This document shows, piece after piece, positions 3,158 through 33,500 of a stretch of DNA of 34,624 nucleotides; the first letter of the stretch is position 1; each line of letters starts with the position of its first letter. A model generated the notes under the pieces. The model was not told the origin of the DNA. It searched no databases and worked only from the letters and a program-made list of their open reading frames with translations. Origin of the DNA: a bacterium (lineage in GTDB: Bacteria > UBA6262 > WVXT01); the NCBI GenBank assembly GCA_035530055.1, contig DATKVN010000055.1, forward strand, positions 1-34,624. Direction: 5' to 3'. The position numbers and the translations under genes were made by a program.

Positions 3158-3190
3158 AGAGCCATTCTCCAAACCTACCAGGAGTAGAAT

Positions 3191-3280
3191 GGTAGCCGTA
3201 GGCTTCAGTCTGCGTTCAGGAAAATGGTAGTCGCAGGCTTCAGCCTGCGTATAAAACGCAAACTAAAGTTTGCGGCTACC
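3191..3280. repeat. Family A nested palindrome: one full copy and one half copy
   Basis: The full copy (3226-3280, 55 bp) has an outer stem GGTAGT/GCTACC enclosing two hairpins, CGCAGGC-TTCA-GCCTGCG and CGCAAAC-TAAA-GTTTGCG, joined by an A/T-rich linker. A half copy (3191-3214) contains only the left outer arm and the first hairpin, with substitutions. They fill the gap between polA and the histidine kinase. A second full copy is at 16564-16629. Confidence 0.85.
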
Positions 3281-3284
3281 AAAA

Positions 3285-5954: not shown

Positions 5955-5973
5955 ACTTTTTTAAAAAAGACAG

Positions 5974-5998
5974 AAAAAAAGTGCCTGTCACTTTTTTT
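5974..5998 (-). terminator. Hairpin with T tract overlapping the panD stop
   Basis: On the minus strand AAAAAAAGTG and CACTTTTTTT flank a five-base loop, ending in seven T residues, which is the form of an intrinsic terminator. It overlaps the last codons of panD and lies just upstream of polA. The core GTGACAGGCAC is a dispersed repeat also found at 6988-7025, so it may be a repeat that acts as a terminator. Confidence 0.55.
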
Positions 5999-6936: not shown

Positions 6937-6987
6937 AAAGCCTCTCTATAAAATTATTATGACATGCCGAGCAGGGCAGCACCAAAT

Positions 6988-7025
6988 AAAAAAGTGCCTG
7001 TCACCTTTTTGCATGTCACTTTTTT
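6988..7025. repeat. Two adjoining copies of the GTGACAGGCAC-type repeat
   Basis: Two tandem degenerate copies, an A-tract then GTGCCTGTCACC then T-tract, followed by GCATGTCAC with T-tract, sit between the fumarase genes. The same core occurs at 5974-5998, and related A-tract/T-tract hairpins are at 16497-16517. Each can form a hairpin with a T run on the minus strand. Confidence 0.7.
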
Positions 7026-9227: not shown

Positions 9228-9326
9228 GTAGTGTAGCCCTTTATGGGCGTAATTCTTACTTGGGCGACCATAAAGGTCGCCCCTACGCGACCCCAAAATC
9301 ATTACGGGGACAAGCCCCTACACTAC
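9228..9326. repeat. Family B nested palindrome, three leaves
   Basis: A 99-bp element bounded by a perfect 9-bp inverted repeat, GTAGTGTAG and CTACACTAC. Inside are three self-complementary units: GCCC-TTTAT-GGGC (9236-9247), GGGCGACC-ATAAA-GGTCGCCC (9262-9282), and a GGGGC/CCCC-type arm around 9290-9317. It fills the gap between the malic enzyme start and the pheS stop. Confidence 0.75.
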
Positions 9327-9334
9327 CAAATGAC

Positions 9335-9358
9335 GCGGAGCTATCGCTCCGCTACTCC
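9335..9358 (-). repeat. Half copy of the family C cloverleaf
   Basis: Read on the minus strand this is GGAGTA followed by the hairpin GCGGAGC-GATA-GCTCCGC and then GTCA. It matches the left outer arm, first leaf and linker of the full family C copies at 16762-16811 and 30401-30453, but the leaf stem differs (GGAGC instead of GAAAC) on both sides. Confidence 0.65.
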
Positions 9359-13663: not shown

Positions 13664-13809
13664 TTCCCCGGGGCGCTCAAGCGTCTTCCGCCCGTCGCTA
13701 ACACAGAGCTCCTTATTCGTCGCTCCAGCGGTCCTTCGGACCCGGGGCGCTCACCGTCTCGCGCCCGTCGCTAACACGGAGCTCCTTATTCGTCGCTCCA
13801 GCGACCCTT
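13664..13809. repeat. Tandem duplication, 73-bp period, between infC and rpmI
   Basis: Two adjoining copies share CGGGGCGCTCA, then CGCCCGTCGCTAACAC, then GAGCTCCTTATTCGTCGCT. The period is 73 bp, measured from GAGCT at 13706 and at 13779. The copies differ at several sites. The GC-rich segment sits inside a ribosomal protein operon. A diverged relative is at 26165-26280. Confidence 0.8.
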
Positions 13810-16487: not shown

Positions 16488-16496
16488 AAAAAATAA

Positions 16497-16517
16497 AAAA
16501 AGTGCCAGGTACTTTTT
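16497..16517. repeat. A-tract/T-tract hairpin
   Basis: AAAAAGT and ACTTTTT flank a seven-base loop GCCAGGT, just upstream of tRNA-Val. It resembles the repeats at 5974-5998 and 6988-7025 with a changed core, and could act as a terminator on either strand. Confidence 0.5.
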
Positions 16518-16538: not shown

Positions 16539-16659
16539 GAGGCTGTGTCGTAACCCTAATTCTGGTAGTCGCAGGCTTTAGCCTGCGCAATTTCCCCGTC
16601 GAGAACGCAACCTGAAGGTTACGGCTACCAAACAAAAAATCTAATTATGACACAGCCTC
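16539..16659. mobile_element. MITE-like insertion with terminal inverted repeats, interrupting a palindrome
   Basis: A 121-bp segment is bounded by perfect 11-bp inverted repeats, GAGGCTGTGTC (16539-16549) and GACACAGCCTC (16649-16659), with further imperfect matching inward. It splits a copy of the repeat GTCCGCCCGAAAGGGCGG: CCCGAAA precedes it and GAAAGGGCGG follows, so GAAA (up to CGAAAG, depending on where the element ends) is duplicated. No coding capacity is present. Its core is a family A palindrome. No transposase is visible, so the element would be non-autonomous. Confidence 0.65.
16564..16629. repeat. Family A nested palindrome, second full copy
   Basis: The outer stem GGTAGT/GCTACC encloses the hairpin CGCAGGC-TTTA-GCCTGCG and a second hairpin AACCT-GA-AGGTT with flanking CG pairs. 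Compared with 3226-3280, the second leaf has changed on both strands (AAAC/GTTT there, AACC/GGTT here) and the linker is longer. Confidence 0.8.
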
Positions 16660-16761
16660 GAAAGGGCGGAATAAAAAAGGATATGTACTTTTTTGCTTCT
16701 GGACTCCTCCCAAAAGGGAGGGATGTACTTCACCTTGCTTTCGCAAGGACTCCAGGGTTTT

Positions 16762-16811
16762 GGAGTAGCGAAACTTGTTTCGCGTCAACGCACCGCAAGC
16801 GGTGCTACTCC
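16762..16811. repeat. Family C cloverleaf repeat, three leaves
   Basis: A 50-bp unit has an 8-bp outer stem, GGAGTAGC/GCTACTCC, enclosing three abutting palindromes: GAAAC-TT-GTTTC, GCGT-CA-ACGC and ACCGC-AA-GCGGT. There are no unpaired linkers. Flanking sequence (about 16690-16880) holds related hairpins such as CCTTG-CTTTCG-CAAGG and CCGTCC-GAAA-GGGCGG (16824-16839). The second full copy is at 30401-30453. Confidence 0.85.
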
Positions 16812-16883
16812 AATTATTGGAGTCCGTCCGAAAGGGCGGAATCTAGTTTTCCCCCGATTTCATCGGGGGACTCCAGAAATTTC

Positions 16884-30231: not shown

Positions 30232-30291
30232 TTTATTTTAACCCTTCTTAGCTGAAATCGTTCCATCGGGGAAGTCCAGAATTTTTGGAGT

Positions 30292-30359
30292 CCTCCCGAA
30301 AGGGAGGTTGGAGTGTCAAGCGAAAGCTTGACCAAGTGAAACTCTCGTTTCACACTCCA
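30292..30359. repeat. Hairpin plus two-leaf nested palindrome
   Basis: CCTCCC-GAAA-GGGAGG (30292-30307) is followed by a unit at 30309-30359 with outer arms TGGAGT/ACTCCA enclosing CAAGC-GAAA-GCTTG and GTGAAAC-TCTC-GTTTCAC. It has the same layout as families A and C with different stem sequences. The interval 30232-30547 contains only such repeats. Confidence 0.75.
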
Positions 30360-30400
30360 GAATTTAATTACCTCGCTTTCGCAAGGATTCCAGGATTTTT

Positions 30401-30453
30401 GGAGTAGCGAAACTTGTTTCGCGTTAATAACGCAGAGCAAGCTCTGCTACTCC
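30401..30453. repeat. Family C cloverleaf repeat, second full copy
   Basis: The outer stem GGAGTAGC/GCTACTCC encloses GAAAC-TT-GTTTC, GCGTT-AAT-AACGC and AGAGC-AA-GCTCT. Compared with 16762-16811 the third leaf stem differs at three pairs, with both strands changed, and the second leaf is one pair longer. It is followed by a copy of CCTCCC-GAAA-GGGAGG at 30469-30484. Confidence 0.85.
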
Positions 30454-30493
30454 AGAGTCTTTTGGAGTCCTCCCGAAAGGGAGGTATATAAAA

Positions 30494-30549
30494 AAATGGT
30501 CGCTGTCCCTATTTAAATGGTCGCTGTCCCTATTTTTGTCCCTATTTTT
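30494..30549. repeat. Direct repeats of AAATGGTCGCTGTCCCTATTT
   Basis: Two adjoining 21-bp copies (30494-30514 and 30515-30535) and a truncated third (TTTGTCCCTATTTTT, 30535-30549) sit directly after, and overlap, the stop of the SprA-like gene. Confidence 0.85.
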
Positions 30550-33500
30550 AAAACTTTATGGTAAGCGTGGTGCTGATATCAACGGCAAAATAGTTATTCT
30601 GGTCTAAAACGTGATTAATAAAAAAGGTCATTCCGCTTCCTACAGTTAACATTAGATTCGAGCCCACGTTAAAATCACTTGATACCAGGGTAGAATAAGT
30701 GTCAGTATTGTCACTCTCCCAATTGAGCTCGCTTCTCTTAATTTCAGCACTAAAACGAGCCTTGACTCTCATCTCACCTGCTGTTCTGACCTGCTTTCCG
30801 ATTATCGGAATCTTCCAAAGTTCAGGCAACTTTAGACTTGCTTCTACATCTATGCTTGGTGTGTGAATTCGACTTTCGGTAGTCTTCTCCCCGCCGGTTT
30901 TTCCCTCTTCTTTCTTATAGCCATACCTGAGATTAAATCTCCAATCCTTCAACCAGGTAAAAGTAATTTGAGCGTTATATTCCCTATTAAATCCCTCCTG
31001 GCTAATCTGCCAGGAAGGCGCACTTTTTACCTTGTTTCGGGAACTACTGTAGGTTAACCAAAAATAATAATTTTCAAATAATTTAAATCTTAGGTCTTCA
31101 CTGAAGTTTACCGTCTTCCCCAACGAGACATCTCTGGCATCTTCCGTGGTCAGGATATACTTTGTTATCATTTCTGCTTCCTGCATTGCCAATCCAAGTA
31201 GAGGGAATTTTTCCAGGCTACTCATCCTTATATCCAGATAGGGCCAGATGCGCTTCTCGCTATCGAGGATTGTTGGTCCCTGACGGCTCTGTGTGCGAGT
31301 ATAGTCTATGTCAGTGGTTATAGTGCTGAACGGATAAAGATAACCTTTTAAATCGAGAAATTCCAGAGGCTTCCAGTTGCTTTCCATCCTGAAAGTATCG
31401 CGAAGAGAAAAAGATTTCAATTTGTCCTCAACTCCCTCAAGTCTTTTATACCCCATACCCTTGCCCCTTAACCACAACTTCCCATAGATACGATAGTCTT
31501 GACTTATGTTCTCATAACTATCACCATCGTCTAATGCATAAGAGGAAGTGACGTTCAATGAATCTACAGGTTTAAATTTGGGAAAGAGTGTTTTGGCAAC
31601 AAAAGGCAGGCTTAGTTTTGCTGAGCTCAACCTGGTAAAATTCTTCTCTGTAGGAGTTGAGGTGCTGGTAAGGATTACAAAATTTTCCGTATTAGTTATG
31701 CTGTAATTCAAAGAAGGCTTGAACCATTCAAAAAATTGGAGAGTTGAATTAAATCCCGCTGTCTGCGTTCCCGACCGGGGACGGTCCGTCTTACCTTCCA
31801 CATATACTCTTTCCTTCACTTTTCGCAAGGAATAGGAAGGAACAATCGATAAATCAGATAGTGGTCTGAAGGTCGCTTTACCTGACCAATCATTTGTGAA
31901 TTCCCGGAAATTATTCTCTGTAGGAGCAGTGCTTGTGAATTTGTTAAATTTATTAATCCTTTTATAAGAACCCCCTAAATCGCGCGGAAGAAGAAAGAAG
32001 CGAACCGGCAGTTCATACTGGTGGAGAGTAGCGGAATATGTATCCGAATCTTCCCTCTTGCCTTCGGGCTGACTGCGGTCAACAATGCTTTTCGTATAAC
32101 TTGTTCCTACCTGCGGGAGCTTTGGCAGTCTCAATTCCGCGCTGGCACTGCCCTGATGGCTTACCACGCGTCCTTCGTCCTGAAAGCTCAGATCCTCAAC
32201 CCTGACCGCCGAAGGAGTCACTGTGGTGGTCTTGCTCCAATTTAACGAAAGCGGCAGGTAATTGAGTCTATTAAAATTGGTGTAGGCTGAGATTACTTCT
32301 TTGTCCTGATTCTTGCTGGGAACAGTAATCGTCTCGAAATTCCTATCCATATACCAGTACTTCCCGCCAAAAGTGAACCAGTCGGGGAGCTCACAATCCA
32401 AACCGATTCTCCCTGCCCAGCCTTCTTTTTTCCTCGCGCCCGTCACGTGAATCTCATTAACCCATATTTCTCCATCAATATCACCCGCTGTATCATTTAC
32501 AATCATTAGTCTTATCTCTGCAATGTTAGTGAGAACGGGATTTCCTACCCGGGTTATGGTTCCATCTGAACTTTCCATCGTGTCTGCTCCATATTTTCCG
32601 TCCTTCTCTGCCAGGTTGATAGTCAAAAGCTTCCAGCCTCCCCAGTTCACCGTTCTTTCAAATTGGTAATAGTCGCTGGGTGTGCCCAATCTCATTATGA
32701 ACTTCGGGTTCTTTGTGGGAAAATCGGGATTACTAATAAAGAATTTCAGTTCTTCATATTTTGAATAGTCCTCGGCTCTGGTAAATGTCCATTTGGTGTA
32801 GCCTGTTGCGCCGGCAGTCAATGTGTACTTCAGCGAAAGTGCCTGCTCCACTTCCTTTTCTTCAACACTTCTCTCACCGTAAAGGTCTTCATAATCGTTG
32901 TTATAAAGTAAGCCCCGACCGTAAACAGCAAAATCATCCTCAGTATTCACAGCGACAACAGAGAACTCATCATTTGCATCTGTGCTCTGGACAATTCCTC
33001 TTTCCCATTTGTTCCCGATCACGCCCATTGAGGCAATCTTTAAACCTCCCGAAACATTTGATCCCTTCAATGTTATCCTTACGTGCTTTATAGCTGTCCA
33101 GTTTGAAACGGTGTTTGTAGTAATACCGAGGTCCCATTCCACTTTCTTCCATCCGGACCAGTTGATACCCGTGGAAAACGGGAAAACATTACCTTCCGCT
33201 TCCGGACCCACGCGGTCTCCATCCAAATCTTCAGTATCAATTTTCCCGTTCTTGTAGCCGATTTTTCCATCCCTGAGGTAAATCTTCTCATCATCATCAG
33301 TCCATCCCCAAAAATCCCAGCCAACGTCTTCGCCGACATTTAGAGTCCCATCGCCATTAATATCCTCTGTGTCCAACTCCCCATCACCATCGGCATCTTC
33401 AGCAATGCTTCCCAGCGTAATCTCTAAAATCTCTCCCTTATTATCCCCATAAACATATAGTTCTAAACTCTCCTTCTGCGAGTAGTCCACTCCCCGGGTG

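Follow-up and report, generated by a model that had tools for sequence, protein, structure and literature searches.

A probable REPIN population and a RAYT gene flanked by its REPs in a poorly sampled bacterial lineage

REPINs have been described as doublets that are mobilised by REP-associated tyrosine transposases (RAYTs) and that may have arisen from the ends of an IS200-like ancestor. RAYTs are regarded as mostly domesticated, single-copy genes that do not mobilise themselves, and a REPtron is not considered to move as a unit (PMC3116915, PMC6006769, PMC8049555). How REPINs originate, move and diversify is an open problem in the field.

Several described systems resemble the repeats that we analysed. 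The REPINs and clade I RAYTs of Pseudomonas fluorescens SBW25 have the same plan: inverted REP doublets with conserved ends and a variable spacer, present in many dispersed copies, together with a RAYT that occurs once and is bordered by cognate REPs. Paired changes were already noted there, and the RAYTs appeared unable to mobilise themselves (PMC3116915). Compared to SBW25, our host genome has an extended foot (GGAGTAGC), perfect 7-bp hairpins and a TT loop, and its RAYT is enclosed exactly by the two halves of a single REPIN and is variably present at its locus. The BIMEs of E. coli and their TnpA_REP REPtron share a GTAG foot followed by a hairpin, an HUH/Y1 enzyme of related sequence (4er8) and heterodimers of different REP subtypes (y, z1, z2), but the REPs are longer and carry a mismatch bulge; E. 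coli REPtrons do not appear to move as a unit (PMC8266576, PMC6006769).

TnpA_Y1 subclass 2.4 has double-foot REPs, in which one hairpin is bracketed by a foot and the reverse complement of that foot; a central deletion of an inverted REP dimer has been proposed as their origin (PMC6006769). By element layout we liken them to GGAGTAGTCCCGATGAATCGGGACTACTCC on contig C46 of a sister species (G003), where, unlike in subclass 2.4, the double-foot element occupies the place of a full REPIN. Finally, the super-family of GTAG-tagged REPs has the same tag, head-to-head heterodimers with different stems, repeat-specific RAYTs and several families per genome (PMC3733652). Our host differs in belonging to another, poorly sampled and uncultivated lineage, and its second repeat class has GGAGT without GTAG.

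Architecture and distribution of the repeats

The window (the whole stretch of 34,624 nucleotides that was analysed) was originally predicted to hold cloverleaf repeats with three leaves. Both full copies are exactly as described (Table 1). With a probability of about 0.9, we consider them REPINs (REP doublets, the basic unit of BIMEs), that is, non-autonomous mobile elements that use single-stranded DNA and have a cognate RAYT in the same genome.

Each REP consists of the foot GGAGTAG, with the canonical GTAG inside it, and a hairpin whose stem is 7 bp and whose loop is 2 nt. This anatomy is drawn from the copies in the fetched loci, where a full copy opens with the head REP GGAGTAGC-GAAAC-TT-GTTTC-GC. 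A spacer follows, most often 6, 9 or 11 nt long, and then an inverted REP, which reads GGAGTAGC-AGAGC-TT-...-GC or has ACCGC in place of AGAGC. This inverted pair with a short spacer is the predominant form: 45 of 71 heads belong to complete doublets and the remainder are half, nested, composite or tandem. The ends are better conserved than the spacer, and the entire unit can be folded into a hairpin. The two conserved feet, inverted relative to each other, account for what had been taken for an outer stem, and the supposed second leaf is the spacer. Contrary to the suggestion that it goes beyond a simple REP palindrome, the repeat stays within REP biology, as the usual REP doublet. The reported half copy is present as well, although it is a complete solo REP and not half a cloverleaf; its GGAGC stem is also found at two other loci (L047 and L213).

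Table 1. Repeats in the window, and sites of hairpin exchange between host genome and sister species G003
Feature	Position or loci	Strand	Details
Second-class REPIN (GGAGT foot)	16701-16755		Hairpins CTCCC-AAAA-GGGAG and TTGC-TTTC-GCAA; beside copy 1
REPIN copy 1	16762-16811	+	Head REP 16762-16783 (stem GAAAC, loop TT)
Copy 1, spacer and right half	16784-16811	+	Spacer GTCAAC 16784-16789; inverted REP 16790-16811 (stem ACCGC)
Second-class REPIN	16819-16874		GGAGTCC-GTCCGAAAGGGCGG ... CCCCCGATTTCATCGGGGGACTCC; counterpart stands alone at the syntenic site in G003
Solo REP, same foot	9335-9358	-	GGAGTAGC-GGAGC-GATA-GCTCC-GC
Second-class REP	30287-30307	+	GGAGTCCTCCCGAAAGGGAGG
REPIN with GGAGTG foot	30310-30358		GGAGTGTCAAGC-GAAA-GCTTGAC ... 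GTGAAAC-TCTC-GTTTCACACTCC; common to G003, missing from G001
Second-class REP	30370-30392	-	CTCGCTTTCGCAAGGATTCC; adjoins copy 2
REPIN copy 2	30401-30453	+	Head REP 30401-30422 (stem GAAAC)
Copy 2, spacer and right half	30423-30453	+	Spacer GTTAATAAC 30423-30431; inverted REP 30432-30453 (stem AGAGC)
Second-class REP	30464-30484	+	GGAGTCCTCCCGAAAGGGAGG; adjoins copy 2; missing from G001 and G003
Hairpin-exchange sites, G000/G003	L009/L206, L010/L211, L032/L210

We counted 65 occurrences of the 22-mer head GGAGTAGCGAAACTTGTTTCGC in the genome of 1.68 Mb (64 exact copies plus one loop variant, matched by a gapped pattern) and none of its reversed control. A looser REP pattern, GGAGTAGCNNNNCNTGNNNNGC, has 140 copies (control 0), and GGAGTAGC alone has 303, compared to 51 for the reversed control. 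These numbers are far higher than chance would give. Five heads lie inside automatically called ORFs and all others are intergenic or at contig edges. Against the 140 copies of the REP pattern in the host genome (G000), the sister species G001, G002 and G003 hold 9, 0 and 31, in assemblies that are fragmented and 83-96% complete. Only three single matches come from 37 more distant genomes, which beyond the same-order relatives share just the domain with the poorly sampled host lineage. The repeats are specific to the genus. One exact copy of the head on a G+C-rich viral contig from IMG/VR (L214:11061-11082), apparently within a coding region, looks incidental.

The second REP class, GGAGTCCTCCCGAAAGGGAGG / CCTTGCTTTCGCAAGGAGTCC, adjoins both window copies, and further repeats are scattered through the window. 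Copy 2 is adjoined by GGGACAGCGACCATTT repeats (30490-30550), which also stand beside a RAYT-like gene on contig C31 (L060) and are probably the repeat class of that gene. Palindromic repeats of the type GGTAGTCGCAGGCTTCAGCCTGCG / GCGGCTACC lie at two intergenic sites (3181-3283 and 16563-16632); with their GGTAG foot they make up a REP-like class of their own. The palindromes GTAGGGGCGACC...GGTCGCCC and GTAGGGGCTTGTCCCC (9254-9327) resemble the REP class beside the RAYT-like gene of contig C69. Short palindromes of the AAAAAGTGCCTGTCACTTTTT type lie at three intergenic places (5967-5997, 6980-7025 and 16488-16517) and can be found close to REPINs outside the window as well (L004). A 55-nt sequence between two genes (13682-13809) is present in two direct copies that are 91% identical and 73 nt apart. 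All 23 larger non-overlapping ORFs of the window are on the minus strand, and in the fetched loci about 94% of gaps lie between genes of the same direction.

The RAYT gene and the inferred movement of REPINs

The original prediction proposed a REP-associated tyrosine transposase as a candidate partner of the repeats, and such a gene is indeed present in the genome, flanked by exactly these REPs. It is one of eight Y1_Tnp matches and lies on contig C35. The 177-aa protein scores 31.1 bits against Pfam Y1_Tnp (cut-off 23) and 85 bits against the NCBIfam model REP_Tyr_transpos (NF047646; cut-off 80). Its best PDB match is TnpA_REP (4er8, E=7.6e-7), with which an HxH motif (NHFH) and a Tyr-containing motif (NYTNYNPVKH) align. 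Judged by its sequence, the protein belongs to the HUH Y1 family, with HxH and a predicted catalytic tyrosine, as a RAYT should. Matches to capsid proteins in the PDB are weak, cover one 63-residue stretch without a shared catalytic motif, and were set aside as chance. An IS200/IS605 insertion sequence was also rejected: the gene has a single copy, and the IS200 model of NCBIfam reaches 21.8 with a cut-off of 55.

The gene sits exactly between the halves of a REPIN (GGAGTAGCGAAACTTGTTTCGCG-taaataaATG...TGA-GCATAGAGCAAGCTCTGCTACTCC), so that matching REPs are found on both sides. Because it lies between two half-REPINs of identical sequence, a REPIN looks like the RAYT element minus its gene. 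The whole unit is placed in the gap between argG and argH and is itself bordered by two REPINs that are identical at 76 of 77 positions. The same gap has no element in G002, other repeats in G003 and one composite REPIN in G001. Recombination between the flanking REPINs, which are direct repeats, would delete the RAYT and could produce exactly the state of G001 from that of G000.

A second RAYT with this layout is found in G003. It is 47% identical to the C35 protein and is placed as GGAGTAGC-AGACT-TT-AGTCT-GC ... AGGTT-AA-AACCTGCTACTCC, that is, exactly enclosed by half-REPs that keep the foot and have other stems (AGACT, AGGTT). Its locus is the end of a mraY-like gene, where G000 and G001 have no RAYT. 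Within the host genome, the second REP class has its cognate RAYT on contig C43 (174 aa, 51% identical to the C35 RAYT), with arrays of that class on its flanks, and the flanks of five other Y1 genes hold other REP-like classes. Among more distant relatives, two clade RAYTs have long inverted REP-like matches spanning the gene (31 nt at L221, 16 nt at L217); others have complete REPINs with a GGAGT-like foot on their flanks. In the host, one intergenic site (L015 / L144, L192) holds a GGAGTAGC REPIN; in G003 it holds another RAYT, which comes with GTAGGCACGGTTTTAACCGTGC REPs, so that two element families use this gap.

REPINs also differ in presence between species. Both window REPINs are missing at the syntenic sites in G001 and G003, and in G003 second-class or GGAGTG REPs alone remain there. 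For nine further REPINs we searched with joined flanks, and several are absent from sister species, for example L029 from all three sisters, L045 from G001, G002 and G003, and L009 from G002. Neither a target motif nor a target duplication could be defined from these nine queries, since at most empty sites the junctions were too changed by other repeats or small differences. Mobility of the doublet is suggested here by syntenic presence and absence between species, with no excision or insertion events observed.

We infer that the C35 RAYT catalyses the movement of REPINs. By analogy with the studied TnpA_REP enzymes, this HUH/Y1 protein would recognise foot and hairpin on single-stranded DNA, cleave beside them and join the element elsewhere. 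One could also argue that the repeats owe their origin and spread to host recombination alone, be it gene conversion, slippage or a switch of template at palindromes, with the RAYT only a passenger. Such a process would suit the copies that are tandem, composite or half-replaced, and also the REPs of G001 and G003 (assemblies 92% and 86% complete), where no close C35-type RAYT was detected. However, about 65 near-identical heads at dispersed sites are not readily produced in this way. Furthermore, the ends of the RAYT element are the ends of the REPIN, a layout common to two related RAYTs at different loci. We therefore think it unlikely that recombination acts alone.

Exchange of hairpins between copies

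The original prediction read the paired substitutions between copies as the mark of a maintained fold. A few stepwise compensated changes exist, but most of the covariation reflects replacement of whole hairpins. At three sites shared by G000 and G003 (Table 1), the left hairpin CGAAACTTGTTTCG has been replaced by TCCCGATGAATCGGGA directly 3' of GGAGTAG. At L009, the spacer and the right leaf of G001 are the same as those of G003, private changes included (GATAATAACATAGAGCAAGTTCTGC); hence, only the left hairpin was exchanged. At L032, G003 has one double-foot hairpin as its element, between unchanged outer junctions, and a comparison of L101/L103 with L043 shows that half a hairpin plus the linker was replaced. 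Insertions can also be nested: a 75-bp unit, made up of a REPIN and part of an ACCGC REP, occupies the same right-hand hairpin-loop position at five G000 loci, which differ in their outer spacers or flanks and of which one is uninterrupted in G001.

Would gradual compensatory mutation under selection for pairing explain the arm differences without any exchange of hairpins? The change from GAAAC/GTTTC to GAGAC/GTCTC fits such a process, as apparent G-T intermediates (GAGAC/GTTTC) are found in the genome. The main change in the alignment, from AGAGC to ACCGC, does not, because it alters two adjacent pairs jointly in the same seven sequences. Nor does the replacement of the entire left hairpin by TCCCGATGAATCGGGA at syntenic sites, at one of which spacer and right leaf stayed the same. 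Gradual compensation as the sole cause seems improbable to us, and the covarying arms mostly reflect exchange of modules between REPs, with a little stepwise compensation. Pairing that stems from duplication and inversion of single arms had been named beforehand as speaking against selection for structure, and whole-hairpin exchange is of this kind. Rec-type gene conversion could be an alternative source of the exchanges, without the RAYT.

A further reading is possible but tentative, and we would put it at somewhat below even odds: REPINs may be internally deleted forms of a REP-RAYT-REP unit that is still mobile, and hairpins may be swapped in place as cassettes, perhaps by the RAYT. If REPINs are internally deleted RAYT elements, then the RAYT unit and the REPIN would be expected to have exactly the same ends, as is seen in two species, and the loci to differ in occupancy, as they do. 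If cassettes are swapped, then the diversity of stems evolves through swapping instead of mutation. Autonomous REPINs that carry a RAYT, together with in-place exchange of hairpins, would to our knowledge be new. Across the four related genomes of the genus, the occupancy of RAYT loci differs, the ends of REPINs and RAYT elements match, and hairpins are replaced at fixed sites. These contrasts make the origin of REPINs and the making of REP diversity directly testable.

Folding of the repeats and the structured RNA reading

Neither window copy has the three-leaf fold as its minimum-energy structure. With DNA parameters, copy 1 folds into two leaves and copy 2 into a single long hairpin; with RNA parameters, both fold into a single long hairpin. 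The second leaf as originally drawn borrows the terminal GC/GC bases of both neighbouring leaves. Among 32 distinct aligned copies, in which the outer stem is invariant by construction because they were chosen for intact feet, bases are paired in 100% of cells in leaf 1, 94.6% in leaf 3 and 77% in the middle leaf, whose central pair is broken in 16 of the 32. The folded form does matter, as had been suggested.

A three-leaf RNA kept by selection on the transcript, for example as a cis-regulatory leader, a processing site or a small RNA, would be a different explanation for the pairing. The leaf stems are well paired and fold better than shuffled sequences, and copies lie between co-directional genes, some immediately 5' of start codons. 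Yet this placement is the norm of the genome (139 of 148 gene gaps), so that we rejected the co-directional context of 63 of 64 classified copies as a signal, and the orientation of the arms relative to genes (39:24) has no clear bias. RNA folding yields no cloverleaf, copies are gained and lost between species despite unchanged neighbouring genes, and conserved structure backed by covariation does not extend to all helices, as the middle leaf is unpaired in half of the distinct copies. A scan with Rfam found four tRNAs only and no family matching the repeat. A structured RNA family, as had been suggested, is unsupported, and we regard this explanation as highly improbable. Hence a note of caution: paired substitutions among repeat copies need not indicate RNA structure.

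A real candidate for a three-leaf element was seen in another lineage. In one distant genome (L219), an element with three hairpins lies 3' of the RAYT, enclosed by inverted TTTGGAGT feet (TTTGGAGTGCGGTC...GCCGCACTCCAAA).
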